This document shows positions 1 to 35,959 of a DNA stretch of 64,000 nt, piece by piece. The stretch is from a virus. Under the pieces are notes generated by a model. It saw nothing but the letters and a program-made list of their open reading frames with translations, made no database searches and was not told where the DNA came from. The translations under genes and the position numbers were made by a program. Numbering within the stretch: the stretch's first letter is position 1; each line of letters begins with the position of its first letter. The stretch covers positions 105,659-169,658 of the IMG/VR virus record IMGVR_UViG_3300043411_001575, one strand, 5' to 3'.

Positions 1-41
1 AGTACAAAAGCCCACATTGCACAAAGCCGATGTTAGCCGCA
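1..41 (+). repeat. attC-like site A (right half only)
   Basis: Right half of a cassette recombination site. The core GTTAGCCGCA at 32-41 is complementary to TGCGGCTAAC at 758-767, the other end of the same module (10 of 10; 13 of 14 when extended). The left arm lies before the window, so the array continues to the left. Confidence 0.7.
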
Positions 42-766
42 GTACATTCTATCAGGGTGATTGTCTTGTGGAAATGGATAAGATTTCCGATAAAAGTGTG
101 GATATGATTTTATGTGATTTGCCTTATGGAACAACAGCTTGCAAATGGGATAGTGTCATTCCTTTTGAGCCACTTTGGAAGCAATATGAAAGGATTATAA
201 AAGATAACGGGGCAATAGTTTTGACAGCTTCGCAACCATTTACAACAATATTAATAAGCAGCAATATAAAGTTATTCAGGTATGAATTAATTTGGCAAAA
301 GGATAAGGCAAGTGGGTTTTTAAATGCTAATAAAATACCATTGAAAGCACACGAAAACGTTTTAGTATTTTACAAAAAGTTACCTACATATAATCCGCAA
401 AAAACCATTGGTGGGCTGCAAAGGAAAAGGACAAGGAAAAAACCAACGCATGAGGTTTTAGGTAAAACTGGTGTAAATGAAAAACACGTTATTTGGCAAG
501 ATAACACAAGATACCCTATAAGTGTTTTAGAATTTGATGTAGATACTATTAACCACAGTTTGCACCCTACTCAAAAACCAATAGCATTAATGGAATATTT
601 AATAAAAACCTACACCAACGAAGGAGAAACAGTTTTAGATAACTGTATGGGTTCAGGAACAACTGGTGTGGCTTGTAAAAAAACAGGTAGGCACTTTATC
701 GGAATAGAAAAGGATGAAAAGTATTTTGAAATTGCCGTTAGCAGGGTGTCTGCGTATTGCGGCTAA
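17..766 (+). CDS. Beta-class DNA N4/N6 methyltransferase, cassette 1
   Basis: 249 aa. Transfers methyl from AdoMet to an amino group of adenine or cytosine in DNA. Motif order is that of the beta class: motif IV DLPYGTT at about residues 34-40, a central target-recognition stretch, HPTQKP at about 184-189, then the AdoMet motif GSGTT at 212-216. DLPY replaces the usual DPPY, as in several phage enzymes. The only early ATG (17) lies upstream of the core GTTA, inside the preceding recombination site and in frame with it; the stop TAA lies inside the next site. No restriction partner is adjacent, so a solo anti-restriction role is inferred. The target sequence cannot be read from the gene. Confidence 0.9.
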   Translation: MHKADVSRSTFYQGDCLVEMDKISDKSVDMILCDLPYGTTACKWDSVIPFEPLWKQYERIIKDNGAIVLTASQPFTTILISSNIKLFRYELIWQKDKASGFLNANKIPLKAHENVLVFYKKLPTYNPQKTIGGLQRKRTRKKPTHEVLGKTGVNEKHVIWQDNTRYPISVLEFDVDTINHSLHPTQKPIALMEYLIKTYTNEGETVLDNCMGSGTTGVACKKTGRHFIGIEKDEKYFEIAVSRVSAYCG

Positions 767-881
767 CGTTTTGCAGATAGGCGTTGTTGCCTCACAAATG
801 ATTGATTGAAACACTAAATTTAATAATATGGGAAATGATAATTTAAAAACGGAAAGCAATAACGCCAATGTGCTGTTAGGT
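761..881 (+). repeat. attC-like site B
   Basis: Imperfect palindrome: left arm CTAACG...GCAGATAGGCGTTGTTGC, right arm GCAATAACGCCAATGTGCTGTTAGG. The loop of about 50 bp contains the ATG (828) of the next gene. Here the core GTTA is not in phase with a codon start; it spans CTG-TTA. Confidence 0.8.
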
Positions 882-1169
882 GCTGGGTTTGTTTACTTGG
901 TAGAATGTTCATCAGGAAGTTGGGATAGTTACCATTGGTGGGTTGGAGGAATATTTGAAAAGCAAGAAGATGCTGATAAATATGCACAAAGCTTGAATGA
1001 TGAAAACAAACGATTAAAAGAGGTTGAATGCTCAATAAAAACACCATTTGAAGATATGACTGATGAAGAAGAAACGGAGTATTACAGGTGGTGGAATGGT
1101 AACAATGATGCTATGGAATGGAATGGTGCTAAAGTTAAGCAGTACCCCATAAACAAACCTTGCACCTAA
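828..1169 (+). CDS. Unknown acidic, Trp-rich cassette protein (cassette 2)
   Basis: 113 aa, not recognised. The N-terminal 16 or so residues are encoded by the upstream recombination site. The body starts at VYLVECSSGSWDSYHWWVGG and is followed by a charged helix and a YYRWWNGN segment rich in aromatic residues. The style suggests a small soluble protein. Its start in the loop of site B and stop at 1167-1169 inside site C mark it as a complete cassette. Its ends GTTAGGTGC (875-883) and GCACCTAAC match as inverted repeats. Confidence 0.7.
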   Translation: MGNDNLKTESNNANVLLGAGFVYLVECSSGSWDSYHWWVGGIFEKQEDADKYAQSLNDENKRLKEVECSIKTPFEDMTDEEETEYYRWWNGNNDAMEWNGAKVKQYPINKPCT

Positions 1170-1258
1170 CGATTGGGTGTATGAGAAGGTTTGCTTAGAT
1201 GAACTTTTAAATTTACACAGAATTTTATAGCAAACTTTCTTATACACCTTGTTATGTA
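1164..1258 (+). repeat. attC-like site C
   Basis: Left arm CCTAACGATTGGGTGTATGAG followed by AAGGTTTGC; right arm GCAAACTTTCTTATACACC then TTGTTATG. The arms pair over about 25 bp with a loop of about 35 bp. No start codon is used in this loop; the next gene begins 60 bp after the core at 1251. Confidence 0.8.
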
Positions 1259-1317
1259 CAGGCACGGTAAATTACCGATGAACTTAATTAAATGAACGAA
1301 ACTAATAATTTTTAAAA

Positions 1318-2058
1318 ATGTGGGATGGCAAATATGCTTTTGAAAAAAGCAAAATAATACAAGGAGATAGTTTGGATAAAATAAAATATATACCTAATGG
1401 CAGTATTGACTTAATTGTAACTGACCCACCGTATAAAATGACGAAACAAGGTAATTCTTGCAGACCAAATTATATGAAAAGTGGAATGGGTGAAAACTTA
1501 TTTGATGGTGAATTACCAAATACAAAAGAATGGATGAAACTTTGTTTTGATAAACTAAAAGACGATGCCCATTTCTATGTATTTACCAATATAAATAGTT
1601 TGCACGAATACCTTGATGTTGCAAAAGAATGTGGATTTAAACTACATAATATTATAAGTATGATTAAAGATACCAAAATGCCTAATAGATGGTATTTAAA
1701 ATACACTGAATTTGTATTGTTTTTTAGAAAAGGTAAAGCGTTTCCAATAAACGATATGACAAGTAGAGATTATGAATTTGTTGAAACACCAACATTAAAA
1801 AATGGCAAAATACATATATCACAAAAACCATTGAATTTTATTGAAAAACTAATAACAAATTCATCAAATGAAGGTGAAATATGTTTGGATTTATTTAGTG
1901 GAAGCGGAACACTTGCAGAAGCCTGTATAAATACAAATAGAGATTTCATTATTATAGAGAAAAACCCAAATGACTTTGAAAAAGGCAAAGAAAGGGTGGG
2001 AAAAATTTTTAAAAATTATGGAATTAACATACAACCTTTAATCGAAGCACAAATGTAG
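1318..2058 (+). CDS. DNA adenine/cytosine-N4 methyltransferase, cassette 3
   Basis: 246 aa. Motif IV is canonical TDPPYKMT near residue 36-43; the AdoMet motif LFSGSGT is near residue 195-201, preceded by HISQKP in place of HPTQKP. This is a beta-class amino-methyltransferase. It is clearly divergent from the DLPY enzymes in the same array, so it was probably acquired independently. The ATG at 1318 follows an A/T-rich leader outside the recombination site. The cassette ends GTTATGTACAGGCAC and GTGCTTGTACATAAC pair at 14 of 15 positions. Confidence 0.9.
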   Translation: MWDGKYAFEKSKIIQGDSLDKIKYIPNGSIDLIVTDPPYKMTKQGNSCRPNYMKSGMGENLFDGELPNTKEWMKLCFDKLKDDAHFYVFTNINSLHEYLDVAKECGFKLHNIISMIKDTKMPNRWYLKYTEFVLFFRKGKAFPINDMTSRDYEFVETPTLKNGKIHISQKPLNFIEKLITNSSNEGEICLDLFSGSGTLAEACINTNRDFIIIEKNPNDFEKGKERVGKIFKNYGINIQPLIEAQM

Positions 2059-2065
2059 TGCTTGT

Positions 2066-2159
2066 ACATAACGTTTTCGGGCTTGGCGAAGGTGGGCTTG
2101 TAGGATGCTCAATTTTAGCACAATGTGTCTGCCCACTTTTGCCAAACCCGTGTTATATG
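2066..2159 (+). repeat. attC-like site D
   Basis: Left arm CATAACGTTTTCGGGCTTGGCGAAGGTGGGC, right arm GCCCACTTTTGCCAAACCCGTGTTATATG, loop about 30 bp. The CGGGCTTGGCGAA / TTTGCCAAACCCG stem is the same type as in sites E, F and M. Confidence 0.85.
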
Positions 2160-2252
2160 AAGTGCCGACTTATTAAGCAGAATTTTAAATTGAAACTATA
2201 AACAGAAAAACAAAAAAGAAAAAAAGCGTAGGGAATTTTAAAAACAAACAAT

Positions 2253-2519
2253 ATGGAAAAGAATTTTATTGAAAAAGCAGAAAAAGAAATTGGTAGAAAA
2301 TTTGGTTTTTTCATCAGATGTGATGATAAAAACAAACCAACAGAAGTATTAACCGATATGTACTTTGAACTATGGGAAACAGAAAAGATGAACGAGATTT
2401 TATCTTTATGCGAAACACATAATCTTAAATACGATTTTGGTTTAGAAAGTTTTGATACCAAAATAGATGCTATTGAACAAGAAATATGTATTGTTTCAAC
2501 TAATTGCGAAAATTCATAA
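2253..2519 (+). CDS. Unknown 88-aa protein, first gene of two-gene cassette 4
   Basis: Charged, helical 88-aa protein of no recognised family (MEKNFIEKAEKEIGRKFGFF at the N-terminus). It ends one base before the ATG of the following methyltransferase, so the two genes are translationally linked and travel in one cassette. A role tied to the methyltransferase (specificity, stability or a small antirestriction partner) is possible but only inferred. Confidence 0.65.
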   Translation: MEKNFIEKAEKEIGRKFGFFIRCDDKNKPTEVLTDMYFELWETEKMNEILSLCETHNLKYDFGLESFDTKIDAIEQEICIVSTNCENS

Positions 2520-2520
2520 A

Positions 2521-3264
2521 ATGGAAGCAAATACGATTTACAAAGGCGATTGCTTTGAACTTATAAAGCAAATAACAAAAGCAGATAACGTCAAACTTAT
2601 TATTACAGACCCACCATATTTACATAATAAAGGAGGTGGGAAAACATCGGGAACAGAGGGTAAAAGTTCAATAGCTAATAGCCCTATGTATAAATTCGAT
2701 TCATTTATGATGGAAGATATGAGTTCTTTTTTAGAGGAAGATGTTTATAATCTATTAGATGAATATAAAAGAATAATGACAAAATTAAACTGCTTTATAT
2801 TTACTAATGACACTTTGATACCGTATTATACAATGTGGGCAGTTAAAAACAATAAAAAGTTTACAATTTTAACTTGGGAAAAACCATTGTCGATTTTAAA
2901 CAGAAATAGATTTAGTCAGAATTTAGAATATGTTGTGAGGATTTACGACAATGGAACTGCACTTAATTTAATAGATTTAGAAGCATATCCCGAAAAGAAA
3001 AACTACTACTCAAAAAACAGAAGGTTAAATTCGCCTACAAATAAGATACACCCAACCCAAAAACCATTAGAATATCTACTTGGATTGATTGAGTTAAATA
3101 CAAATGAAGGCGATTTAGTATTAGATACGTTTTTTGGTAGTGGACAAACAGGTAAGGCTTGTCAGATTTTAAATAGAAATTATATCGGTTTTGAAAGAGA
3201 AGAAAAGTATGTTGAATTATCAAATAAATATTTACAACAAGGATTTGAAAAAACACTATTTTAA
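2521..3264 (+). CDS. DNA amino-methyltransferase, second gene of cassette 4
   Basis: 247 aa from ATG 2521, chosen because the protein then begins MEANTIYKGD, the usual start of this family; an upstream in-frame ATG at 2467 would overlap the previous gene. Motif IV TDPPYLHNKGGG lies near residue 32, HPTQKP near 181, and the AdoMet motif TFFGSGQTG near 206 (FGSGQT rather than GSGTT). Beta-class order. Target unknown. A T-rich tract after the stop (about 3275-3295) resembles the one after the gene at 6463-7299 and may terminate transcription. Confidence 0.88.
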   Translation: MEANTIYKGDCFELIKQITKADNVKLIITDPPYLHNKGGGKTSGTEGKSSIANSPMYKFDSFMMEDMSSFLEEDVYNLLDEYKRIMTKLNCFIFTNDTLIPYYTMWAVKNNKKFTILTWEKPLSILNRNRFSQNLEYVVRIYDNGTALNLIDLEAYPEKKNYYSKNRRLNSPTNKIHPTQKPLEYLLGLIELNTNEGDLVLDTFFGSGQTGKACQILNRNYIGFEREEKYVELSNKYLQQGFEKTLF

Positions 3265-3337
3265 AAGTGTGGTGGCTTTTTTCTTTTTGTTTTTCATTAA
3301 CGGAACTTCAATTGGAAACGGTCAGCAAGGCATTTCA

Positions 3338-3463
3338 TATAACGTTCGAGGGCTTGGCGAAGTGGCTGAACCTGAAGCTAAATAGAATTACTAAACTTAA
3401 AAATTAAGAACGAATGATTGATATAATTACTGAACAGCCATTTTGCCAAACCCGTGTTAGTGG
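3338..3463 (+). repeat. attC-like site E
   Basis: Left arm ATAACGTTCGAGGGCTTGGCGAAGTGGCTG; right arm CAGCCATTTTGCCAAACCCGTGTTAG. The loop of about 75 bp carries an A-rich leader and the ATG at 3414 of the next gene, 42 bases and in frame before the core at 3456. Nearly identical to sites F and M. Confidence 0.87.
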
Positions 3464-4223
3464 CAGTACTTTTGTGAATGCTGATTGCTTTGATGTTTTT
3501 CCTTTTATCGAGGATAAATCAATTGATGCTATTATTTGCGATTTGCCCTATGGAACAACTCAATGTAAATGGGATAGCATTATTAATTTAGATTTGATGT
3601 GGACGCAATACAACAGAATAATAAAAGATAACGGCATTTTTATATTATTTGCAGATGAGCCTTTTACAAGCATATTAATAAATAGTAACATTAAAAATTT
3701 TAAGCAAAGAATAACTTGGGATAAACAAATAGCAGGAGGTCATTTAAACGCTAAAAAAATGCTATTGAAAAGAACTGAGGATATATGCTTATTTTCAAAT
3801 GTTAAAAATGGAAAATATACATACAATCCTATTTTAAAAGATAAGGATTTTAAAAACATAAGAGATAGAAACGGAGAAAACAGAAAAGAGTTTAAAGGCG
3901 GTTATGTAGGGAAACACAATAGTACGTTGAGTAAAGAGCATAACAATAAAAAAAGTTACCCAGATAATTTAATTTCCTTTTCAGCAAGAAAAGGCGATTG
4001 TAACCCTATAAATAGATTACACCCAACACAAAAACCACTTGAATTGATGGAATATCTTATAAAAACCTATACTAATGAGGGCGATTTGGTTTTAGATAAC
4101 ACAATGGGTTCTGGAACAACAATTTTAGCTGCTATAAAAAATAATAGAATTGGTATAGGAATTGAAAAGGAAAAACAATATTATGATGTCGCTGTTCGTA
4201 GGGCTTCGGAGTATTGCCACTAA
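3414..4223 (+). CDS. Beta-class DNA methyltransferase, cassette 5
   Basis: 269 aa. The first 14 residues (MIDIITEQPFCQTR) are encoded by recombination site E. There is no later ATG before the catalytic motif, so the site-borne ATG is the likely start. Motif IV DLPYGTT is near residue 42, HPTQKP near 203, DNTMGSGTT near 225-233. The first 50 residues and the last 20 are almost identical to the next cassette (4295-5053) while the middle, which holds the target-recognition region, is different. This suggests duplication with exchange of specificity. Confidence 0.9.
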   Translation: MIDIITEQPFCQTRVSGSTFVNADCFDVFPFIEDKSIDAIICDLPYGTTQCKWDSIINLDLMWTQYNRIIKDNGIFILFADEPFTSILINSNIKNFKQRITWDKQIAGGHLNAKKMLLKRTEDICLFSNVKNGKYTYNPILKDKDFKNIRDRNGENRKEFKGGYVGKHNSTLSKEHNNKKSYPDNLISFSARKGDCNPINRLHPTQKPLELMEYLIKTYTNEGDLVLDNTMGSGTTILAAIKNNRIGIGIEKEKQYYDVAVRRASEYCH

Positions 4224-4343
4224 CGTTATCGGGCTTGGCGAAGTGGCTGAACCCGAAGCTAAATAGAATTACTAAACTTAAAAATTAAAAACGAATGTCA
4301 AATAGAATTACAGAACAGCCATTTTGCCAAACCAGTGTTAGTG
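4219..4343 (+). repeat. attC-like site F
   Basis: Same arms as site E: TAACGTTATCGGGCTTGGCGAAGTGGCTG and CAGCCATTTTGCCAAACCAGTGTTAG. The loop carries the ATG at 4295, again exactly 42 bases before the core at 4337. Sites E and F differ at only a few positions over about 120 bp, so they are a recent copy. Confidence 0.87.
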
Positions 4344-5053
4344 GCAGTACTTTTGTAAATGCTGATTGCTTTGATGTTTTTCCTTTTATTGAGGACAAAT
4401 CAATTGATGCTATTATTTGCGATTTGCCTTATGGAACTACTGCTTGTAAGTGGGATACAATTATACCATTTGAGCCGCTATGGGAGCAGTACAAGCGAGT
4501 GATTAAACCTAATGGTGCGATAGTGCTGTTTAGCAAAGAGCCATTTACGTGCATATTGAGAACAAGTGAAATTAAAATTTTTAAGCAACCTCTTATTTGG
4601 GATAAGGTTAATTCAGATAACCCTATGCAGGCAAAAAGAAGACATCTAAACACTACGGAGGATATTTCTATCTTTTACAAATCTCAATGTACTTATAACC
4701 CACAAGGTCTTATAAAGTCAAATATAAAAAAGGGAGGGAAGCAAGGGATAATGATTGATAGTAGTGGTAAGGAAAAAGAACAATATATTCAAGAGAATAC
4801 CAATTATCCGAAAAATATATTAGTGTACCCGATAGAAAGAAAGGCGGTTCATCCAACTCAAAAACCCGAAGCACTCCTGCAATACTTAGTCAAAACCTAC
4901 ACTAACGAAGGCGATATAGTCTTAGATAACTGTATGGGTTCAGGTACAACAAATCTTGCTTGTTTAAAATTAAATCGCAAATCAATTGGAATAGAAAAGG
5001 AAAAACAATATTACGATGTCGCTGTTCGTAGGGCTTCTGAGTATTGCCACTAA
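4295..5053 (+). CDS. Beta-class DNA methyltransferase, cassette 6
   Basis: 252 aa. Residues 1-14 come from recombination site F. DLPYGTTACKWD near residue 42, HPTQKP near 188, DNCMGSGTT near 210. N-terminal 50 residues and C-terminal 20 residues match cassette 5; the segment after the catalytic motif (ACKWDTIIPFEPLW) instead resembles cassettes 1 and 12, so this gene looks like a mosaic of array members. The stop TAA at 5051-5053 is part of site G. Confidence 0.9.
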   Translation: MSNRITEQPFCQTSVSGSTFVNADCFDVFPFIEDKSIDAIICDLPYGTTACKWDTIIPFEPLWEQYKRVIKPNGAIVLFSKEPFTCILRTSEIKIFKQPLIWDKVNSDNPMQAKRRHLNTTEDISIFYKSQCTYNPQGLIKSNIKKGGKQGIMIDSSGKEKEQYIQENTNYPKNILVYPIERKAVHPTQKPEALLQYLVKTYTNEGDIVLDNCMGSGTTNLACLKLNRKSIGIEKEKQYYDVAVRRASEYCH

Positions 5054-5110
5054 CGGTATCCGTATAAGGGAAGTGCGAGGAACGAGCATTTACTTTATAC
5101 GGTGTTAGCA
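5049..5110 (+). repeat. attC-like site G (shortest)
   Basis: Compact 62-bp version: left arm CTAACGGTATCCGTATAAGGGAAGTGC, loop of under 10 bp, right arm GCATTTACTTTATACGGTGTTAGC. It shows that the long loop of the other sites is optional. Just downstream GGCTCGTTCC (5133-5142) could also pair with GGAACGAGC of the loop. Confidence 0.8.
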
Positions 5111-5138
5111 AAGTGCGTTGGGATTGTGTGTCGGCTCG

Positions 5139-5158
5139 TTCCAAAACCATTTATTTTC
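5139..5158 (+). repeat. 20-bp inverted repeat, left copy (cassette 7)
   Basis: TTCCAAAACCATTTATTTTC at 5139-5158 is the exact reverse complement of 5723-5742. The pair brackets both genes of cassette 7 just inside the recombination cores, extending the terminal complementarity of this cassette. Confidence 0.8.
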
Positions 5159-5260
5159 TTTTTTTTGGGGAGGTTTTGAAAACTTTTTTACTAAAATACT
5201 TGCTAAATGACAATTTATATTTATCTTTGAACCATATTAATAATCTAAAAACAAAACAAA

Positions 5261-5572
5261 ATGATTTACAAAAAAACACACTATGATAAAAAGGCTTTAA
5301 ACAGCCACGTTTCAAAAATAAAAGATGCAGGAGGAAATGCAATAGTAGATGGATTATCGGTTAGATATTTCTATCCATCCAATACCATTGGTGAAATTAG
5401 ATTAAAGCATAAGAGTTGGAAGAAAACAGAAAGACAAGAAGTTTTGTTTATTGTTTTAGTTTCTGAAAAAGATAAAACGCCATACTATTCAGCAATGTAT
5501 TTCCCGAAATGGGTTGAAATAGGAGGTGTTTATGGAAACAAAAATGACATAACAATAATCGAAAAGTTTTAA
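5261..5572 (+). CDS. Unknown 103-aa basic protein, cassette 7
   Basis: Not recognised. Lys/Tyr-rich N-terminus (MIYKKTHYDKKALNSHVSKI), then a predicted beta-rich body (VSEKDKTPYYSAMYFPKW). Two bases separate its stop from the next small HTH gene, so the two form a mini-operon reminiscent of toxin-antitoxin pairs, which are frequent integron cargo. That role is inference only; no toxin motif is visible. Confidence 0.65.
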   Translation: MIYKKTHYDKKALNSHVSKIKDAGGNAIVDGLSVRYFYPSNTIGEIRLKHKSWKKTERQEVLFIVLVSEKDKTPYYSAMYFPKWVEIGGVYGNKNDITIIEKF

Positions 5573-5574
5573 CT

Positions 5575-5730
5575 ATGAAACTGTCTGTAACAGAATATGC
5601 AAAACAGCTTGGCGTAACTCGTCAAGCCGTTTTGTTACAAATTAAAGAAAAAAGGTTGCCTAAAAATGTGAAGGTTGAAAAAATCGGAAATACTTATTCT
5701 TTAACTGTGGGTGGGCAAAAAAGAAAATAA
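5575..5730 (+). CDS. Small helix-turn-helix protein, cassette 7
   Basis: 51 aa. MKLSVTEYAKQLGVTRQAVL is a clear helix-turn-helix start of the excisionase/MerR-like or Fis-like type, followed by a basic stretch (KEKRLPKNVKVEKIG) and a beta hairpin ending in QKRK. Likely binds DNA. Could be an autorepressor or antitoxin for the adjacent 103-aa protein, or a factor acting on the cassette sites. It ends inside the right copy of the 20-bp inverted repeat. Confidence 0.75.
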   Translation: MKLSVTEYAKQLGVTRQAVLLQIKEKRLPKNVKVEKIGNTYSLTVGGQKRK

Positions 5731-5742
5731 ATGGTTTTGGAA
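5723..5742 (-). repeat. 20-bp inverted repeat, right copy (cassette 7)
   Basis: GAAAATAAATGGTTTTGGAA, exact reverse complement of 5139-5158. It overlaps the last codons of the HTH gene and lies a few bases before TTTGCTAAC, which pairs with GTTAGCAAA at the other end of the cassette. Confidence 0.8.
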
Positions 5743-5748
5743 TGTTTG

Positions 5749-5843
5749 CTAACGTATGGTGCTATGAGCAGGTTTGCCTTGCAGAAATGTTCAAATTTAG
5801 CACTAATGTTATTGGCAAACTTGCTTATAGCACGTGTTAGCGG
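5749..5843 (+). repeat. attC-like site H
   Basis: Left arm GCTAACGTATGGTGCTATGAG then CAGGTTTGCC; right arm GGCAAACTTGCTTATAGCACG then TGTTAGC. Loop about 30 bp without a used start codon. Confidence 0.82.
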
Positions 5844-5875
5844 TAGTTTATTTTTCAAAAATTAAAATTAAAAAT

Positions 5876-6334
5876 ATGGGAACACAAGTAGTAGGAGAAA
5901 GTAACAGCGTTGAGTATAGCACTCCGTTGAAAATAGTACAGCCATTGATAAACGAATTTGGCTTAACAAGAGATGTTTGTGCAAGTGAATTAAACCACAA
6001 ACTACCCGATTATTGGACAAAAGAAGATAATTCACTTGCTATGAATTGGAAAGGTAATTGTTGGATGAACCCACCATTTAGCAGAGATTTGAATAAGTGG
6101 GTAAAGAAAGCGTGTAATGATGCTGAAAGGTTTGGAGGAACGAAAGTTTGTTTAATACCTGTAAGAAGCAATACAAAATGGTGGGCGGAAGTTTGTGTAA
6201 AAGCAGAAATTCGTTTTATCAATGGCGAAGTAAATTTTAATGATGAAGAACGTGGACTTTGGTTGCCGATGTGTATTATCATTTTCGGTGAGAAGGCAAA
6301 GGTTGGCACGTTCTCTGTCTTAAATTACCGCTAA
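5876..6334 (+). CDS. Phage-type Dam-like N6-adenine methyltransferase, cassette 8
   Basis: 152 aa from ATG 5876 (after an A-rich leader; a GTG at 5834 within the core is less likely). Matches the short phage N-6-adenine methyltransferase family: VEYSTPLKIVQPL at the N-terminus, DVCAS near residue 36, and the catalytic WMNPPFSRDLNKWV near residue 62 (NPPF motif IV). It adds methyl to adenine in DNA and lacks a large recognition domain. Unlike the other seven methyltransferases it belongs to the Dam/DNA_N-6 group. Terminal repeats GTTAGCGGTAGTTTA and TAAATTACCGCTAAC pair at 14 of 15 positions. Confidence 0.88.
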   Translation: MGTQVVGESNSVEYSTPLKIVQPLINEFGLTRDVCASELNHKLPDYWTKEDNSLAMNWKGNCWMNPPFSRDLNKWVKKACNDAERFGGTKVCLIPVRSNTKWWAEVCVKAEIRFINGEVNFNDEERGLWLPMCIIIFGEKAKVGTFSVLNYR

Positions 6335-6408
6335 CGTTTTGCAGCTAACAGAAGGCGGCTTTTTAGCAAACTTAGTACTTGCCGCTTTTTGTTAGCTGCT
6401 GTTAGTGG
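6329..6408 (+). repeat. attC-like site I
   Basis: Left arm GCTAACGTTTTGCAGCTAACA then GAAGGCGGC; right arm GCCGCTTTTTGTTAGCTGC then TGTTAGTGG. A second TAACA/TGTTAG pair sits inside the stem. Loop about 20 bp. Confidence 0.82.
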
Positions 6409-6462
6409 ACTGTTAAATTATTAAAAAAGAAAAAAGGAGGGGTGCGAGGGCATCTAAACATA

Positions 6463-7299
6463 ATGGACAAGAAGAAACTTTTAATTGCTTTTAGTGGTGG
6501 AGAAACATCTGCATTTATGGCTCAATGGTTATGGAAACATAAACAAGGTGAATACGAAATGTTATTTGCTTTTGCTAATACTGGGGTTGAGAATGAAGAA
6601 ACTTTAAACTTTGTGCATAAATGCGAAGTTGAATTTGGTATAAATGTTAATTGGTTGGAAGCAGTAATAGACCAAGAGAAAGGGAAAGGCACAAGGCATA
6701 AGATTGTTGATTACAAAACAGCAAGTAGAAACGGACAACCATTTGAGGAACTGATAAAGAAATACGGTTTACCAAACCAACAGCGATTTCACTGCACAAG
6801 GGAGTTAAAAAATAATACATTGATTTCATTTGCAAAAAGTATTTGGGGAAAGGAAAAGTATTATTTAGCAATAGGAATTAGAGTAGATGAATTTGATAGG
6901 ATGAATGATAAATTTAAAGAGTTGAGAATTGTTTATCCGTTAATTTCAGAAATTCCAATGACAAAGCCAAAGATTAATTTTTGGTGGAAACAACAACCGT
7001 TTAGATTAGAATTAAAAGGTTATCAAGGGAATTGTGTTACTTGCTACAAAAAAAGTGATAAAAAATTGTTTCAGATAGCTAAAGAAAATCCAAGTGCATT
7101 TGATTTCTTTGATAGAATGGAAGAACAATATGGAGAAGGTAAGTATCAATTTTTTAGGCAGAACCGAACAGCTAAACAAATTATGGAACAAGCTAAAGAA
7201 TGGAATGGCAATGTAACCGATGACGCACAAAATGTTACAATACAAACAGATTTATTTAGCGAAAGTTGTGAAGCATTTACAAGCGATTGCGGTGTTTAA
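6463..7299 (+). CDS. PAPS-reductase-like PP-loop enzyme, cassette 9
   Basis: 278 aa from ATG 6463. The N-terminus carries the N-type ATP pyrophosphatase loop FSGGETSAFMAQW (residues 9-21). Further marks are NTGVENEETL, CTRELKNN (near 114) and a NCVTCYKKSDKK segment (near 195) that could bind metal or Fe-S. Enzymes of this group include PAPS reductases, tRNA thiolases and DndC of the DNA phosphorothioation pathway. Given the surrounding DNA methyltransferases, a nucleic-acid modification role is plausible, but no other dnd gene is present. The ends of this cassette are long inverted repeats, including a 22-bp T/A tract (6413-6434 with 7340-7361). Confidence 0.82.
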   Translation: MDKKKLLIAFSGGETSAFMAQWLWKHKQGEYEMLFAFANTGVENEETLNFVHKCEVEFGINVNWLEAVIDQEKGKGTRHKIVDYKTASRNGQPFEELIKKYGLPNQQRFHCTRELKNNTLISFAKSIWGKEKYYLAIGIRVDEFDRMNDKFKELRIVYPLISEIPMTKPKINFWWKQQPFRLELKGYQGNCVTCYKKSDKKLFQIAKENPSAFDFFDRMEEQYGEGKYQFFRQNRTAKQIMEQAKEWNGNVTDDAQNVTIQTDLFSESCEAFTSDCGV

Positions 7300-7307
7300 C
7301 CTTTTCA

Positions 7308-7350
7308 CAGTTTTGAAAAAACTGAAAGAGTGCGTGGGCTTTTTCTTTTT
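7308..7350 (+). terminator. Possible intrinsic terminator after cassette 9
   Basis: CAGTTTT-ga-AAAAACTG hairpin at 7308-7324 followed by GTGGGC and a T-rich tract. The tract TTTTTCTTTTTT is also part of the cassette's inverted end repeat, so the two roles cannot be separated. Confidence 0.4.
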
Positions 7351-7365
7351 TAATAATTTAATTGC

Positions 7366-7497
7366 CACTAACGGTTCGCAGGTATATTTAGTTGCGGACT
7401 TAGTAACACAAAACTTTAAATTTAGAAGAAATGAAGAAAGAAGAACAAAACTCGAATGAACCACAAAAACCGCAATTGAATATACCTGCTGTTAGTT
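7366..7497 (+). repeat. attC-like site J
   Basis: Left arm CTAACGGTTCGCAGGTATATTTAGTTGCGG; right arm CCGCAATTGAATATACCTGCTGTTAGT. The loop contains ATG 7431, 60 bases and in frame before the core at 7491. Closely related to site K. Confidence 0.85.
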
Positions 7498-7787
7498 GCA
7501 GTGTTGTTCATTGCAAGAAAGCACCTTATGATGTTTATATTGGAAGACCAAGCAAATGGGGTAATCCATTCACACACATAAAAGACGGTAAAACACTTGC
7601 AAAACATATTGTAGGTAGTAGAGATGAAGCAGTCGAAGCATATCTTGAATGGATTACCAACGGAGAAGGTAAACATTTGATGAGTGATTTACACGAATTG
7701 AAAGATAAGGTGCTTGGTTGTTGGTGTCATCCACAATCTTGTCACGGAGATGTACTTTCGGAGTTGGTTGCTAAACATTGCAACTAA
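7431..7787 (+). CDS. DUF4326 family protein, cassette 10
   Basis: 118 aa. Residues 1-20 come from site J. The body shows the DUF4326 signature: VYIGRPSKWGNPF (about 36-48) and the C-terminal LGCWCHPQSCHGDVL (about 95-109), whose Cys/His pattern may bind metal. The family is common in phages and mobile DNA; its biochemical role is not established. The cassette ends GTTAGTTGCAGTG and CATTGCAACTAAC pair at 12 of 13 positions. Confidence 0.85.
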   Translation: MKKEEQNSNEPQKPQLNIPAVSCSVVHCKKAPYDVYIGRPSKWGNPFTHIKDGKTLAKHIVGSRDEAVEAYLEWITNGEGKHLMSDLHELKDKVLGCWCHPQSCHGDVLSELVAKHCN

Positions 7788-7913
7788 CGTTTTGCAGGTA
7801 TATTTAGTGCCGAATTTAAAAACGAAAAATATGAATTTTATACAAAAGTTATTTAAAAGCAGAAAGGTTAATGAACCGATGAACTCGGCATTGAATATAC
7901 CTGTTGTTATACC
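7783..7913 (+). repeat. attC-like site K
   Basis: Left arm CTAACGTTTTGCAGGTATATTTAGTGCCGA and right arm TCGGCATTGAATATACCTGTTGTTAT pair over about 25 bp. The loop has ATG 7831, 75 bases and in frame before the core at 7906. Confidence 0.85.
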
Positions 7914-8133
7914 TCGTTTATCTTCTGATTGGATAAAATTTGAGGATGAAAAACCACCACACGAAGTAGTATTAGCTGCTTGCGATACTTATGATTGTGG
8001 ATGGACTATGGATACTGTTTGGTGGTATGAAGATAAGCAATGTTGGATGGTTACTGGTGCAGTTAAAAGTACAGAAGCACATTTACCATACACACATTGG
8101 CGTAAATTACCACCATTTCCAAATGAGGTATAA
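7831..8133 (+). CDS. DUF551-like protein, cassette 11
   Basis: 100 aa from ATG 7831, in the loop of site K; the first 25 residues are site-encoded. The rest matches the DUF551 pattern: DWIKFEDEKPPHEVVLAACD, a central WWYEDKQCWMV, and the terminal THWRKLPPFP. The family is widespread in phages of Gram-negative bacteria, function unknown. The stop TAA (8131-8133) is part of site L. Cassette ends GTTATACCTC and GAGGTATAAC match exactly (10 of 10). Confidence 0.82.
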   Translation: MNFIQKLFKSRKVNEPMNSALNIPVVIPRLSSDWIKFEDEKPPHEVVLAACDTYDCGWTMDTVWWYEDKQCWMVTGAVKSTEAHLPYTHWRKLPPFPNEV

Positions 8134-8260
8134 CGTATTGGTGCTATACGAAGGAGGCGATTATTAGCACTAAATTTGATGCGGAGTACAAATGTTTGTT
8201 TAACCACAAATGTTTCTGCGGAGTACCAAACCGCCTCTTTTGTATAGCACGTGTTATACG
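8128..8260 (+). repeat. attC-like site L
   Basis: Left arm GTATAACGTATTGGTGCTATACG then AAGGAGGCG; right arm CGCCTCTTTTGTATAGCACG then TGTTATACGC. The loop holds a small direct repeat (TGCGGAGTAC and CAAATGTTT, each twice) and no used start codon. Confidence 0.82.
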
Positions 8261-8320
8261 CTGGCACGGTTGATTAAACGAGAAACTTAAATTGAAACAC
8301 AAAACAAAATTTTTATTAAA

Positions 8321-9106
8321 ATGAGCGAGGGCAAAAAAGAAATATTATTAGGAGATTGTTTGGAACTTATGAAGGATATACCAAACGGAAGTATTGATAT
8401 GATACTTTGTGATTTACCATACGGAACAACTGCTTGTAAATGGGATAGTGTAATACCTTTTGAACCACTTTGGAAAGAATATGAAAGGATTATAAAGACC
8501 AATGGTGCTATTTTATTGTTTGGAACACAACCATTCACAACAGAACTAATATTGAGCAATAGAAAATTGTTTAAGTATGATATGGTTTGGTGCAAAGACA
8601 AACCTGCTGACTTCGGAAATGGCAATATAAAACCATTAAGATACCACGAAACAATTTGTGTATTTTATACCAAAACGCCAACATACAATAAGCAATTTGA
8701 AAGCAGAAAAGGAACTGGCTATTCAAGGGCTAAATATCCTGTAAATTACATAAACAATTCAGAGCATAAATTTGGAATGAAAGATGGTTCTTTTGATTAT
8801 GCAAATAAAGACAGAATGATTGGAACTGTAATAGATATTACAACTGGTGCAAGAGGTAGCATAAAACACCCAACAGTAAAGCCCGTTCCTTTATTTGAAC
8901 ATTTAATCAAAACATATACCAACGAAGGTGAATTGGTTTTAGATAATACAGCAGGAAGCGGAACAACTGCAATTGCTTGTTTGAATACTAAAAGGCAATT
9001 TATAGTAATGGAAAAAGAACAAAAGTATTACGATATGATTTTAAAAAGGGTGGGAGATTTTAATAAAAATTTTGAACCGCAAACTCTCTTTGGAAACGAA
9101 ATGTAG
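8321..9106 (+). CDS. Beta-class DNA methyltransferase, cassette 12
   Basis: 261 aa. DLPYGTTACKWDSVIPFEPLW near residue 32-52 is nearly the same as in cassette 1, HPTVKP near 184, DNTAGSGTT near 209. The N-terminal segment LLGDCLELMKDIPNGSIDMI is typical. The ATG follows its own A/T-rich leader after the recombination core. C-terminal tail NFEPQTLFGNEM extends past the motif block. Likely a solo modification enzyme; the target is unknown. Confidence 0.9.
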   Translation: MSEGKKEILLGDCLELMKDIPNGSIDMILCDLPYGTTACKWDSVIPFEPLWKEYERIIKTNGAILLFGTQPFTTELILSNRKLFKYDMVWCKDKPADFGNGNIKPLRYHETICVFYTKTPTYNKQFESRKGTGYSRAKYPVNYINNSEHKFGMKDGSFDYANKDRMIGTVIDITTGARGSIKHPTVKPVPLFEHLIKTYTNEGELVLDNTAGSGTTAIACLNTKRQFIVMEKEQKYYDMILKRVGDFNKNFEPQTLFGNEM

Positions 9107-9112
9107 TGCTTG

Positions 9113-9240
9113 CGTATAACGGTATCGGGCTTGGCGAAGTGGCTGAACCGAATGTTTGATAGAAGCACAAAACTTAATAATTAAAAACGAATGATTGATA
9201 GAATTACTGAACAGCCATTTTGCCAAACCCGTGTTATGTG
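9113..9240 (+). repeat. attC-like site M
   Basis: Left arm TATAACGGTATCGGGCTTGGCGAAGTGGCTG, right arm CAGCCATTTTGCCAAACCCG then TGTTATG. Same stem as sites E and F, and its loop also places ATG (9191) 42 bases in frame before the core (9233), although the left part of the loop differs. Confidence 0.87.
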
Positions 9241-9985
9241 CAGGGCGGTTGATAACCTTGAACTCCTTTTGTCGCAACCTGATGAAAGTGTAGATTTGAT
9301 TTACTGTGATATTCTTTATGGAACGGGTAGGAATTTCGGTGATTACCAAGACTTAAAACCAATTAGAAGCGAAATAGAAAGCCACTACCTACCAAGACTT
9401 ATTGAAATGAAACGAGTTTTAAAAAGTACAGGTAGTATTTATTTGCAAATGGATACACGAATAAACCATTGGATGCGCATTTTGATGGATGATGTTTTTG
9501 GGTATGAAAATTTCCGCAATGAAATAGTATTTGGATATAATGGGGGTGGTGTTTCAAAGAATTGTTATCCTAAAAAACACGACATAATCTTGTTTTATTC
9601 TGTTAGTGATAAATACTATTTTAATAACGAAAAGAAACCATACTCCGCTTTAAGTTCACAAAACTTATTGTGGAAACATAGGAATAAAAAAAGACTTGAT
9701 GAACTTAATGATGGCACACCTGTAACCGATGTATGGACTGATTTGAAGTTTAAAATAAATTACCAAGAGGAAGAATATACAGGATATGCTACCCAAAAAA
9801 CAAAAGAATTATTGAGCCGTATTGTTTTAGCTTCCACAAATGAAGGCGATACAGTTGCAGATTATTATTTAGGTAGTGGCACAACGGCAGTAGTTTGTAA
9901 GGAACTGAACCGAAATTTTATAGGTTGCGATATTAATCCAAAAGCTATTGAAATAACAAATGCTCGTTTAGATGCACTTTCGTAG
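9191..9985 (+). CDS. DNA methyltransferase with atypical DILY motif, cassette 13
   Basis: 264 aa. The first 15 residues (MIDRITEQPFCQTRV) are encoded by site M; an ATG within the core (MCRAVDNLELL) is an alternative start. Motif IV reads DILYGTGRNFGDYQD (near residue 39), where DPPY is expected; the AdoMet motif DYYLGSGTT is near residue 228. The central part (YLPRLIEMKRVLKSTGSIYLQMD) is typical of type III mod/MboII-like beta-class enzymes. The altered catalytic tetrad could change base choice or reduce activity. Ends GTTATGTGCA and TGCACATAAC pair exactly. Confidence 0.85.
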   Translation: MIDRITEQPFCQTRVMCRAVDNLELLLSQPDESVDLIYCDILYGTGRNFGDYQDLKPIRSEIESHYLPRLIEMKRVLKSTGSIYLQMDTRINHWMRILMDDVFGYENFRNEIVFGYNGGGVSKNCYPKKHDIILFYSVSDKYYFNNEKKPYSALSSQNLLWKHRNKKRLDELNDGTPVTDVWTDLKFKINYQEEEYTGYATQKTKELLSRIVLASTNEGDTVADYYLGSGTTAVVCKELNRNFIGCDINPKAIEITNARLDALS

Positions 9986-9989
9986 CTTT

Positions 9990-10001
9990 GCACATAACGT
10001 G
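9990..10001 (+). repeat. Terminal half-site N at the right end of the array
   Basis: TGCACATAACG with no palindromic partner to the right: the inverse core of cassette 13 is present, but the rest of a recombination site is missing before the recombinase gene. This is either the truncated last site or the junction with the phage backbone. Confidence 0.6.
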
Positions 10002-10044
10002 TATTTAATGGAATGGAGTGTCAAAATCAATTAGTTACATAATA

Positions 10045-10914
10045 ATGGAAGATAAAATTAACAAATTAAGGAGGGAGTTATCCATAAGGAAATATGCTCC
10101 TAATACAGTTGAAACATATTGTTCATGTCTTAAAGTTATTTTTAGTAAATGTGGAATTAATCCAAGTATTGATTCTTTAAAGTCATATTTATTAACTATT
10201 GAAAATAGAAACTACCATAAACAAATAGTCGCTACATTCAGAAACTACTCTGAATTTGTATTAGGTATTAAATTATCTTTAAACGATGTTCCTTATCCTA
10301 GAAAACAAGAAAGTTTGCCTGAAATATATTCAGTTGAAGAGGTTTCTAAATTAATTAATATTCCTAAAAATTTAAAACATCAATCTATAATTTTTTTATT
10401 GTATGGATGTGGACTTAGAGTTAGTGAATTAATTAATTTAAAATTAACTGATATAGATAGTGATAGAATGGTTGTTAACATCCGAAAAGCAAAAGGAAAT
10501 AAGGACAGGCAAATAATGTTGGATGAATCTTTACTTAAATTACTTCGTGATTATTACACTGAATATAAACCAATAAATTATTTATTCAATGGTCAAAAAA
10601 AAGACCAATATAGTGACAGGTCTGTAAATGAACTTCTTAAATATTGGTCTAAAAAAGCAGGTATAAAAAAACATATTCATGCTCATTTATTAAGGCATTC
10701 ATTCGCTACCCATCTTTTAGATGCAGGAATAGACATGGCTATAATTCAAAAGTTATTAGGTCATTCAAACATAAAAACAACGCAAATTTATGCAAAAATT
10801 TCAACCAAATTAATATCTCAAATTAAATCTCCATTATCAAACATTAAAATCAATTCAAATGAAAAATCTAGTAATATTATTCCTTTGTGGAATTCTGATA
10901 GGTTTCCAAACTAA
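10045..10914 (+). CDS. Tyrosine recombinase adjacent to cassette array
   Basis: 289 aa from ATG 10045 (a GTG at 10018 would add nine residues). SAM-like N-terminal domain at 1-85, catalytic domain at 90-265. All six catalytic residues are visible: R125 (GCGLRVSEL), K150, H214 and R217 (HAHLLRHSF), H240 (LLGHSN) and Y249 (TTQIYAKIS). The region near 180-200 is short, so the extra helix that marks integron integrases (IntI) is absent; the overall build is Xer-like, as in Bacteroidetes elements. It lies about 45 bp after the last half-site and reads in the same direction as the cassettes. Candidate enzyme for the array, or the phage integrase. Confidence 0.92.
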   Translation: MEDKINKLRRELSIRKYAPNTVETYCSCLKVIFSKCGINPSIDSLKSYLLTIENRNYHKQIVATFRNYSEFVLGIKLSLNDVPYPRKQESLPEIYSVEEVSKLINIPKNLKHQSIIFLLYGCGLRVSELINLKLTDIDSDRMVVNIRKAKGNKDRQIMLDESLLKLLRDYYTEYKPINYLFNGQKKDQYSDRSVNELLKYWSKKAGIKKHIHAHLLRHSFATHLLDAGIDMAIIQKLLGHSNIKTTQIYAKISTKLISQIKSPLSNIKINSNEKSSNIIPLWNSDRFPN

Positions 10915-20098: not shown

Positions 20099-21268
20099 AT
20101 GTTAACCTATAAAAGAAAACTAAAAATAACTAAGGCTCAGGAGGAAAGAATTTCTTCATGGATTGGTGCGTGTCGTTTGGTTTACAATATGGGCTTAGAA
20201 ATTAAAAAAGAAACGTGGAAAAATAAACAGCAAAATGTTTCTGCTTATGATTTATCGAAACAACTTCCCTCAATAAAAGACGTAGAATGGGTAGCTGATG
20301 TTCCTGCTCAATGCCTTCAGAATTCATTGGAACGACTTGATAGGTCATATAAAAACTTCTTCCGTAATTTTAAATCAGGAGGCGGATTTCCAAAATTTAA
20401 ATCAAAAAGAGATTATAAGTCTATGTTGTTTAAACAAGGTGATTTAAATGCAAAGACACCTTTAATAACTCTTAGTAAAAACAAAATAAAACTTCCTAAG
20501 CTTGGTGAGGTATCATTTTTCAAAGATAAATCACCGATTATAGGTAAAATAAAAACAGTAACAATAAAGATAGAACCAACAGGATTTTTCTTGTACATTG
20601 TCTGTGACGGAGTTAGTAAAAGCATCTCAAACCCTGACGAAAGCCAAGTCATAGGGATTGACATGGGAGTAGCTAACTTCTGTTCAGACAGCAACGGAAA
20701 CTTCATCGAAAACCCAAGACACTTCAATAAATATGAAGATAGGCTTCGTATTGAAAATAGGAGTTTAGCTAGAAAAAAAAGAGGAAGTAACCGTTGGAAA
20801 AAACAAGCGAAAAAGCTATCACTTTTGCATCACAAAATATCTAATATTAGGAAGGATTTTTTGCATAAAGAATCCACCAAAATGGCTAAAAATTTCCATA
20901 CTATTTATTTGGAAGATTTGAATATTTCGAATATGTCGAAACGTCCAAAACCAAAGCAGGATGAGAATGGTAAGTTTATTCTAAATGGTTCTTCTGCAAA
21001 ATCAGGATTAAACAAATCAATCCTAGATGCAGGTTGGGGAATGTTTAGGGATATGCTCGAATACAAAACAAATGTAGTTCGAGTAGACCCAAAATACACC
21101 TCTCAAAAGTGCAACGAATGTGGCGAAAAAGATTCAAAGAATAGGTTATCACAAAGCGAATTTGTTTGTTTAAGCTGCGGTCACATCAGTCATGCTGATA
21201 CAAATGCAGCGAAAAATATTTTGAGCAAGGGCATTGCTCTCAATCGTGAACGTAAGGCACTAGTCTAA
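20099..21268 (+). CDS. tnpB: TnpB, RNA-guided DNA endonuclease (IS200/IS605 OrfB type)
   Basis: 389 aa. Has the OrfB N-terminal helix-turn-helix start, split RuvC nuclease with D188 (GIDMGVANF), E272 (YLEDLNISNMS) and D367 (SHADTNAAKNIL), and the zinc finger C338/C341/C357/C360. All catalytic residues are intact. In the family this protein uses an RNA from the element's right end to cut target DNA and favour retention of the element. No TnpA transposase is seen, so mobility would depend on a partner elsewhere; alternatively it has been kept as a homing-type nuclease. It interrupts the early region. Confidence 0.93.
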   Translation: MLTYKRKLKITKAQEERISSWIGACRLVYNMGLEIKKETWKNKQQNVSAYDLSKQLPSIKDVEWVADVPAQCLQNSLERLDRSYKNFFRNFKSGGGFPKFKSKRDYKSMLFKQGDLNAKTPLITLSKNKIKLPKLGEVSFFKDKSPIIGKIKTVTIKIEPTGFFLYIVCDGVSKSISNPDESQVIGIDMGVANFCSDSNGNFIENPRHFNKYEDRLRIENRSLARKKRGSNRWKKQAKKLSLLHHKISNIRKDFLHKESTKMAKNFHTIYLEDLNISNMSKRPKPKQDENGKFILNGSSAKSGLNKSILDAGWGMFRDMLEYKTNVVRVDPKYTSQKCNECGEKDSKNRLSQSEFVCLSCGHISHADTNAAKNILSKGIALNRERKALV

Positions 21269-26394: not shown

Positions 26395-27090
26395 ATGACA
26401 AACGAAAACAATAAGTTATCAGTAAGAAAAACTCAAAGTTTAAAACCTGAAATAAAGCAATTAACAACTGAAGAGTTAAAAGAAGAGTCGAAAATTTATT
26501 TTAATTCAGGGTTAGCTCCTTCCCATTTGAAAAATTGGGAAGCTGTTTTTGTCGCTAAAAGTTGGGCGCAAGGATTAGGAATGCATACTACATTAGGTCT
26601 TAGGGATATTTTTGTTATTGATAACATTCCATCATTAAGAACAGAAGCGGCAATGGCTCTTGTTGAAATAAGTGGCTTTTGTGAAAACTTTGAACAAGAA
26701 TTCATAGGCAAACCATATGATGATAATTTTACTGCTGTGTGTAAAGTTAAAAGAAAAGGTAGAAAAGAACATATTTCTACATTTTCAGTTAAGGATGCAA
26801 AAATAGCTCTGCTTTGGGGAAAGAAAACTAACACAGGTAAACCAACAGCATGGGTTACATATCCTCAGAGAATGTTGATGTATCGAGCCGTTGGATTTGC
26901 CATAAGGGACATATTTAGTGATGTTTTACGTGGAAGCCGCTTATACGAAGAAATTGTCGATTATCCACAATATGAAATAATTGATGATAAATCTAATTCA
27001 ACTGAAGTTAATGTTGTAGTTGGAAATAAAAAAACATTTAACGGAGGTAACAAACCAATTAACCTACTTAATGATGAACCGCCTGAATAA
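26395..27090 (+). CDS. recT: RecT-family single-strand annealing protein
   Basis: 231 aa. The block WVTYPQRMLMYRAVGFAIRD at about residues 159-178, followed by FSDVLRGSRLYEE, is the RecT hallmark (YPKRML..RA..FALRDVFPDVL.G). An upstream region with FVAKSWAQGLGM and AALVEISGF-like blocks matches the family. The protein anneals complementary single strands and promotes recombination between short homologies. With the Cas4-like nuclease and RusA it forms a complete phage recombination set. Confidence 0.9.
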   Translation: MTNENNKLSVRKTQSLKPEIKQLTTEELKEESKIYFNSGLAPSHLKNWEAVFVAKSWAQGLGMHTTLGLRDIFVIDNIPSLRTEAAMALVEISGFCENFEQEFIGKPYDDNFTAVCKVKRKGRKEHISTFSVKDAKIALLWGKKTNTGKPTAWVTYPQRMLMYRAVGFAIRDIFSDVLRGSRLYEEIVDYPQYEIIDDKSNSTEVNVVVGNKKTFNGGNKPINLLNDEPPE

Positions 27091-35332: not shown

Positions 35333-35959
35333 TTATATGAATTGATAATAATTAAATAATCTATTTGAAACGGCTGTATTGTTTGATATTGCTTGTGAAA
35401 CAAAAGCTGTTGTTGCTAACTTTGTTGAGTTATCATTTACTGCCTGAGTAGGAGCGGTTGGTGTACCTATAAAAGCAGGTGAATTTAACACCGCATAATT
35501 TGATATTATATAGTTTATTTGCCCTTGTGCCTTTTCCGACACTTCTTGAAAATCATCCCCAACTACAATAGCTGTATTTGATGGGGCAAAAGGAGTTTTT
35601 ATAACCGTACCACTAAATTCAATCCAAGTTAATCCATTATAATAATTAAAAGATAATGTTGTTGTATTATAAATTAAAAGAGCATTTACGGGAGTAATAA
35701 TAGCATCCCTTTGAATAGTTGTCATTCGTGGACTTAAAAAACCTTGTGTAGTAGAGGTTAAGTCTAGTAAAGCAGAAGCATCAGGAGTAATAGTTCCTAA
35801 ACCTGCTGAAATACCATTATCGAAAAACATACTGTTTCCAATATTTAATCCATCAGGAGTGAATTTACACAAATAATTTAGTGTACCACCACCTCCGATA
35901 GTACCTCCGCCACCACCTCCGCCTGCGCCACTAAATCCAAATGGAGAATTTCCGAACAT
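35333..35959 (-). CDS. Tail-fibre-like protein, short form, 208 aa
   Basis: The first 120 residues (MFGNSPFGFSGAGGGGGGGT, LCKFTPDGLNIGNSMF, FLSPRMTT) are nearly identical to the 866-aa protein at 36263-38863. The C-terminal end has the classic fibre motif SPAFIGTPTAPTQAVNDNST followed by KLATTAFVSQAISNN. Same attachment module, different distal part. Both copies share 227 bp of DNA. Confidence 0.8.
   Translation of the reverse strand: MFGNSPFGFSGAGGGGGGGTIGGGGTLNYLCKFTPDGLNIGNSMFFDNGISAGLGTITPDASALLDLTSTTQGFLSPRMTTIQRDAIITPVNALLIYNTTTLSFNYYNGLTWIEFSGTVIKTPFAPSNTAIVVGDDFQEVSEKAQGQINYIISNYAVLNSPAFIGTPTAPTQAVNDNSTKLATTAFVSQAISNNTAVSNRLFNYYQFI
35717..35943 (-). repeat. 227-bp near-identical repeat, copy 1 (fibre N-terminus)
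   Basis: Aligns without gaps to 38621-38847, with few mismatches. It encodes the shared Gly-rich and FLSPRMTT segment of the two fibre genes. Confidence 0.85.

Follow-up and report, generated by a model that had tools for sequence, protein, structure and literature searches.

The window analyzed here, 64,000 nucleotides in length, comprises positions 105,659 to 169,658 of a 169,658-bp IMG/VR virus contig, and coordinates below are those of the window unless the contig is named. It opens inside a cassette array that extends upstream beyond it; the full array occupies 37 kb, from contig position 77,775 to 114,896. A stem-based search for TAACG...TGTTA sites found 44 attC-like sites on one strand and 2 on the other, with 0 in the rest of the window (50 kb) and 0 to 3 per shuffle. 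The site finder was home-made and tuned to TAACG/TGTTA, and the 44 sites are a lower bound, since some were probably missed. It was used in place of a looser search for AAC/GTT cores, which gave an uninformative 61 hits per strand. Rfam and tRNA searches gave no matches. The array carries at least 20 methyltransferase genes of several families (N6_N4, D12, Dam, and MT-A70). The array features on which this analysis centers are as follows.

1..9997, plus strand: integrase-proximal end of the array, 13 cassettes, all genes on the plus strand (stem search and gene orientation)
3338..3461, plus strand: attC-like site of cassette 5, 124 nt, with an ATG and a 15-residue leader (stem search; leader in frame)
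3343..4223, plus strand: mobile unit of cassette 5, attC plus ORF, 881 bp, from the junction between TAA and CG to TAA (TAAC(G) indel junctions in near-identical phages)
3414..4223, plus strand: ORF of cassette 5, beta-class N6_N4 DNA methyltransferase, 269 aa (Pfam PF01555, E 9e-32)
3414..3557, plus strand: 5′ constant frame of cassette 5, up to motif IV DLPYGTT (codon alignment, change points)
3558..4154, plus strand: swapped core of cassette 5, target-recognition region (DNA identity to cassette 6 of 0.4 to 0.7)
4155..4223, plus strand: 3′ constant frame of cassette 5, terminating in a TAAC box (94% DNA identity to cassette 6, last 22 codons)
4219..4342, plus strand: attC-like site of cassette 6 (stem search; folding)
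4224..5053, plus strand: mobile unit of cassette 6, attC plus ORF, 830 bp (TAAC(G) indel junctions, as for cassette 5)
4295..5053, plus strand: ORF of cassette 6, beta-class N6_N4 DNA methyltransferase, 252 aa (Pfam PF01555, E 1e-32)
4295..4438, plus strand: 5′ constant frame of cassette 6 (codon alignment, change points)
4439..4984, plus strand: swapped core of cassette 6, target-recognition region (codon alignment; nearest core relative 52% aa)
4985..5053, plus strand: 3′ constant frame of cassette 6 (end comparison across the family)
5049..5109, plus strand: attC-like site of the cassette after cassette 6, 61 nt (stem search; folding)
9191..9985, plus strand: cassette 13, from a second methyltransferase family in which the ends are constant and the middle is swapped (comparison with its partner)

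The sites have the inverted R and L boxes and the single-strand hairpin of an integron attC array. The ORF strand folded better than its complement at 5 of 5 attC-like sites; for the site of cassette 6 the values were -12.65 and -8.65 kcal/mol, respectively, and the site at 5049..5109 had a z-score of -4.5 on the ORF strand. Upstream of the window, contig positions 77,775 to 105,658 (L009 and L010) hold about 28 kb more of the array, with about 30 attC-like sites and 13 more methyltransferase-like genes; there, one 61-nt attC is present twice, and unrelated genes have several near-identical attC types in common. Cassette 9 (6442-7299) encodes a PAPS-reductase-like protein that matches the SspD model (PADLOC E 1e-12) and is possibly a DNA phosphorothioation-related gene amid the methyltransferases.

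Cassettes 5 and 6 had been described in the sequence-only reading of this stretch as neighbors with common recombination sites, the same first 50 and last 20 residues, and a different recognition region. A comparison of 3414-4223 with 4295-5053 bears out the shared ends and the differing recognition region and excludes uniform identity along the two genes: the ends are about 95% identical in DNA and the middle 35 to 65%. By codon alignment, residues 11 to 47 are 95% identical in DNA, 97% in amino acids, and 89% at third positions; over residues 48 to 230, DNA identity is only 0.4 to 0.7, with a drop also at third codon positions; and the last 22 codons are again 94% identical in DNA and 100% in amino acids. 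The claim for the C-terminal 20 residues therefore holds, while that for the first 50 is mostly right but slightly generous, as residues 2 to 4 and 14 differ. Maximum-likelihood change points fall at residue 48 on the 5′ side and residue 232 on the 3′ side. Since synonymous and third positions jump too, the discontinuity is one of DNA and not of protein alone. The common recombination sites are also real, as the attC-like hairpins at 3338-3461 and 4219-4342 contain the two ORF starts. Because both ORFs begin within such a hairpin, residues 1 to 15 of each protein are encoded by the site; at the other end, the stop codon of each gene is the TAA belonging to the TAAC box of the next site.

Both proteins match PF01555 and have a DPPY-like motif IV ahead of motif I, which places them among the beta-class amino DNA methyltransferases. 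An AlphaFold2 model of the cassette 6 protein (pLDDT 83.9) has M.BceJIV as its nearest solved structure, followed by M1.HpyAVI, CcrM, M.MboIIA, and M.RsrI. In beta-class methyltransferases, motifs IV and I flank the recognition region, and the lowest conservation is found between these motifs, at about residues 139 to 185 of cassette 6. The recognition sequences of the two enzymes are likely to differ.

The frame shared by cassettes 5 and 6 occurs in three further copies upstream of the window in the same array (five in total) and in about 18 distinct other members. The latter come from IMG/VR contigs and from isolated Flavobacterium phages (mumin, filifjonk, and tooticki), and most lie in attC-like arrays. 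Across 23 distinct members, the chance of the same codon given the same residue is 0.75 to 0.91 in the 5′ frame, 0.50 to 0.67 in the middle, and about 0.80 to 0.83 at the 3′ end. Distances at the 5′ end track those at the 3′ end (Mantel r 0.67, p<0.0002), whereas the middle correlates with neither (r 0.13 and 0.10, p 0.09 and 0.15). In frame-sharing pairs, the 5′ joints have a median at residue 49 (interquartile range 48 to 55), where motif IV DLPYGTT occupies 43 to 49, and the 3′ joints have a median at 198 (interquartile range 188 to 204), with HPTQKP at 186 to 191 and motif I at 211 to 219. One core, 93% identical in amino acids, stands within different frames in L013 and L027 (permutation 0/20,000), and a core common to L016, L018, and L020 (96 to 98% aa) follows three different attC leaders. 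These results, with ends that covary, an independent middle, and one core in two frames, uphold the earlier view that the genes are mosaics produced by recombination. The core is independent of the ends and, on the position of the joints, appears to move by double crossover in conserved motifs.

Cassette 13 and its partner outside the window (contig 84,314; L009:16314-17135) repeat the pattern, with outermost codons 88 to 97% identical in DNA and a middle of 35 to 45%. Core swapping is not universal among the methyltransferases of the array, however: a third group (contig 81,162, 99,433, and 100,490) was considered as a further mosaic and rejected, as its members show ordinary divergence. Elsewhere in the window, on the minus strand, the neighboring genes at 35333-35959 and 36263-38863 encode a near-identical N-terminus (MFGN..FGFSGAGGGGGGGTIGGGG..) and then diverge; they are possibly another mosaic pair and perhaps tail fibers. 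Two giant repetitive proteins of 1656 and 1939 aa (47071-52041 and 52672-58491, minus strand) have a common N-terminus and many short AKGGGVG linkers.

How whole cassettes come and go can be seen in 11 isolated Flavobacterium phages, whose otherwise near-identical arrays are told apart by the presence or absence of entire units (342, 412, 439, 476, 506, and 1581 bp); these six indel events are few, and related phages do not count as independent events. Every distinct indel junction has TAACGTT, ATAACG, or TTATAAC and never TGTTA, and two of the insertions abut the constant junction of TTATAAC with TACAATATT at the attI-like end of the array. It follows that the mobile unit is an attC together with the gene behind it. 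The opposite definition, an ORF plus its downstream attC with leader peptides swapped on insertion, was dropped on the same evidence. Cassettes are thus gained and lost as units with crossover at a GTT(A) box, as in integrons. The two ends of each unit form private inverted repeats, with a mean run of 8.64 nt, where 5,000 shuffles reached at most 5.84, as expected if an excised circle restores the full hairpin; in the cassette 5 unit, the ends pair as GTTAGTGGCA/TGCCACTAAC. The repeats are often about 14 nt long, with a G.T wobble at about position 11 when read on the gene strand (for example, 3456-3469 and 4211-4224), and so exceed the classical 7-nt R box.

At and beyond the end of the array lie the following features.

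9995..10044, plus strand: attI-like site, the last TAACG half-site and a conserved spacer ahead of the recombinase (sister contig L011)
10045..10914, plus strand: tyrosine recombinase, XerA/XerD/IntI-like, without the IntI additional domain (profile comparison; arrays upstream of its relatives in 63 of 69 viral contigs)
26395..27090, plus strand: RecT-like single-stranded DNA-annealing protein, candidate helper of homologous exchange (phrog_561, E 1e-16)

Between the recombinase and RecT-like genes, 20099-21268 encodes a transposase (phrog_506, E 6e-108) whose zinc-finger C-terminus marks it as OrfB/TnpB-like.

The recombinase most resembles archaeal XerA, with IntI and XerD next. A stretch of 68 residues in the Vibrio cholerae integrase 2A3V is reduced to 25 here, so the IntI-specific domain is absent, and the protein scores 155 bits against TIGR02249, under the cutoff of 265. 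An IntI-specific additional domain near patch III is a stated requirement for integron integrases (PMC9668308), and in this respect the phage enzyme departs from them. A tyrosine recombinase adjoining a putative attI site is nevertheless present: in sister contig L011, the spacer of about 50 bp between the TAAC half-site and the recombinase is kept with a different cassette in front. Around 80 viral relatives of the recombinase gene, 305 attC-like sites were counted upstream on its own strand, against 8 in all other placements, and a TAAC..ATATGTA motif precedes the gene in 58 of the 80 (0.011 expected). Among viral contigs with a related recombinase and at least 1 kb upstream, 63 of 69 have an array. 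The association of array and recombinase is therefore not incidental. Cassettes of the type of cassettes 5 and 6 are attI-proximal in L031 and L142; in L031 (1824-2627), where such a cassette sits directly at attI, the recombinase frame is broken by one in-frame TAG. Another phage contig, L025 (6791-9537), has a related recombinase preceded by five 52-nt attC sites that are nearly identical, a homogeneity that resembles that of sedentary integrons.

With the crossover box taken to define the attI-side orientation, phage genes follow their attC and point to attI in 288 of 291 intervals; the usual integron order, in which a gene precedes its attC and points away from attI, is not the one found in these phages. 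The classical orientation of attC is TAACA...CGTTA, as in aadA and the V. cholerae attC sites. In Bacteroidota genomes, 14 of 19 intervals are opposite to the phages, and all 5 exceptions come from a single phage-like contig. Gene direction toward attI is thus opposite to that of classical and most Bacteroidota chromosomal arrays. The idea that the phage recombinase sits at the wrong end was dropped, since site polarity puts it at attI, with transcription leading away from the array. In the Bacteroidota genomes (L188 to L267), the same recombinase family lies beside chromosomal attC arrays, but the recombinase and the genes run the other way with respect to the sites; many of these draft contigs stop soon after the recombinase gene. 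Sedentary chromosomal integrons with reversed intI, of the Spirochaetota type (PMC9668308), are comparable to these loci, which have the recombinase on the gene strand and an adjoining array. Although the Bacteroidota loci and the phages have the same recombinase family, the polarity of the phage sites relative to the genes is inverted.

Where the mosaics arose is a separate matter. The sequence-only reading saw in the pair direct evidence of mosaic formation inside the array, possibly helped by RecT, and noted that the cassette 6 segment past the catalytic motif resembles cassettes 1 and 12. In such a scenario, RecT-mediated homologous recombination would have joined neighboring cassettes, and the donors would have been cassettes 1 and 12. 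The array does offer substrates within one genome in its five copies of the frame, of which cassette 5 and copy C (contig 102,169) are about 97% alike over attC and 5′ frame, and the phage encodes RecT-like and RusA-like proteins, the former scoring 22.9 bits against Pfam RecT, just under the cutoff of 24. The resemblance to cassettes 1 and 12 is one of amino acids only (80% and 73%), however, and third positions are only 33% identical, which is background here and points to family resemblance rather than recent common DNA; this eliminates the two as DNA parents of cassette 6. No other place in the contig matches the core of cassette 5 or 6 well, and pattern-limited searches of IMG/VR gave no close donor, the best core relatives being 49% (cassette 5) and 52% (cassette 6) identical in amino acids, so that exchange is deduced from its pattern rather than seen between known parents. 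Nor are the ends of the array's own copies nearer to one another than to their closest counterparts in other phages: within the array, 5′ ends average 0.948 identity, compared with 0.97 for the best outside matches, and over its last 24 codons cassette 6 matches L024 at 100% and L015, L016, and L026 at 99% but cassette 5 at 85%. Formation inside the array is accordingly unlikely, although the mosaic structure itself stands, and the family members look, from these comparisons, like independent arrivals out of a common phage pool.

Purifying selection could in principle produce conserved ends in an old gene family whose recognition region diversifies, with no recombination at all. The ends hold motifs IV and I, conserved throughout beta-class enzymes, and short inverted repeats that are obliged to pair, so selection might act on protein or DNA. 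Yet the jump is present at synonymous positions, the 5′ constant DNA reaches about 100 nt past the repeat, one core is found in different ends that covary mutually and not with the core, and the third group has no such jump under similar constraints; we regard this account as highly improbable. An exchange of ends by the site-specific recombinase itself, instead of by homologous recombination, would fit the attC/body joint, which falls exactly at the GTTA box where leaders differ, but the core joints lie about 100 to 200 nt from the boxes and vary in position, which makes this process the hardest of all to credit. Finally, the recombinase at 10045 could be an ordinary phage integrase that lies by chance beside an orphan attC cluster (CALIN) driven by host integrases. 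In keeping with this, isolated Muminviruses have arrays, although their paper (PMC7077304) reports no lysogeny genes, and the distant integrases of the Polaribacter and Cellulophaga phages Freya_10, Leef_1, and Ingeline_1 have no array beside them. A CALIN has no linked recombinase, though, and here the recombinase adjoins the last half-site; in 63 of 69 related viral contigs the array has the same placement and strand, and the attI-like motif is conserved; the same family also flanks arrays in Bacteroidota genomes. A chance neighborhood is unlikely.

We conclude with good confidence that cassettes 5 and 6 are alleles of a mobile methyltransferase cassette whose cores were swapped by homologous recombination and which is carried by a phage integron-like platform with a likely anti-restriction role. 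In this model, the two alleles would belong to one cassette circulating in Bacteroidota phages. Its constant frame would consist of the attC hairpin, which supplies the start codon, the N-terminal part as far as motif IV, and the C-terminal end that runs into the next recombination box. Other beta-class methyltransferases would have supplied new target-recognition cores on repeated occasions, through double-crossover homologous recombination with joints at conserved motifs, just after DLPYGTT and around HPTQKP or motif I; the RecT-like protein or another annealing protein may have been the agent. Most of these exchanges presumably took place in the wider phage pool. The phage-borne platform, made up of the tyrosine recombinase, the attI-like site, and 44 or more cassettes, would then move the finished cassettes by crossover within TAAC(G). 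The array probably serves the phage as an exchangeable stock of orphan methyltransferases that shields its DNA from host restriction, and the best reading of the array is a phage-borne, integron-like library of putative anti-restriction genes.

To our knowledge, few worked examples show how a gene acquires an attC and turns into a cassette. Retention of the attC-bearing ends with exchange of the core is a concrete, testable route to new cassettes and, if the model is true, one route by which genes become cassettes. A recombinase-linked methyltransferase array would give phages a built-in exchange of anti-restriction genes, which would explain the measured host-range differences of isolated Flavobacterium phages. 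A recombinase without the domain thought to be needed for attC recognition also makes the minimal requirements of integron recombination testable.

Several known systems resemble parts of this arrangement. Methyltransferases are described in the available text of two papers as the commonest known variable genes in phage flexible genomic islands, and the presence of one of them as correlated with plating efficiency (PMC7468147, PMC7077304); Muminvirus phages lacking one methyltransferase plated 1,000- to 10,000-fold worse on LMO6 (PMC7077304). The same text of these papers describes neither attC units nor a recombinase as the cause. The alleles of type III mod genes (modA/B/D and ModS; PMC8125046) have, like the family of cassettes 5 and 6, conserved ends (>95% identical in modS) and a variable central target-recognition domain. 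Those alleles are chromosomal, occupy one locus, and undergo simple-repeat phase variation, whereas here several alleles stand side by side as attC cassettes of one phage; cassettes 5 and 6 have one ORF each, with no simple-repeat tract and no Res gene as partner.

The closest precedent is the set of phage integrons and CALINs of Qi et al. 2023 (PMC9892861), the only treatment of integrons in phages found in a search of open-access literature, preprints excluded, and the one relative to which novelty is judged here. In 10,705 phage genomes, that study found 3 complete integrons, one In0, and 17 attC clusters, and IntI1 was active on five of the six phage attC sites assayed. Its attC-bounded phage cassettes, some of them N6_N4 methyltransferases, are like those described here; its main text names neither Flavobacterium nor Bacteroidetes. 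The present array differs in having 44 sites, its own linked recombinase and attI-like site in a linkage that recurs in 63 viral contigs, genes that face attI, and a recombinase without the IntI domain. We lean toward the view that it represents a separate integron lineage of Bacteroidota phages, with a XerA/IntI-like recombinase lacking the IntI domain, a conserved attI, and phage-only cassettes that lie behind their attC and face attI, in which new cassettes arise by a swap of the core between motifs IV and I while the attC ends are kept.
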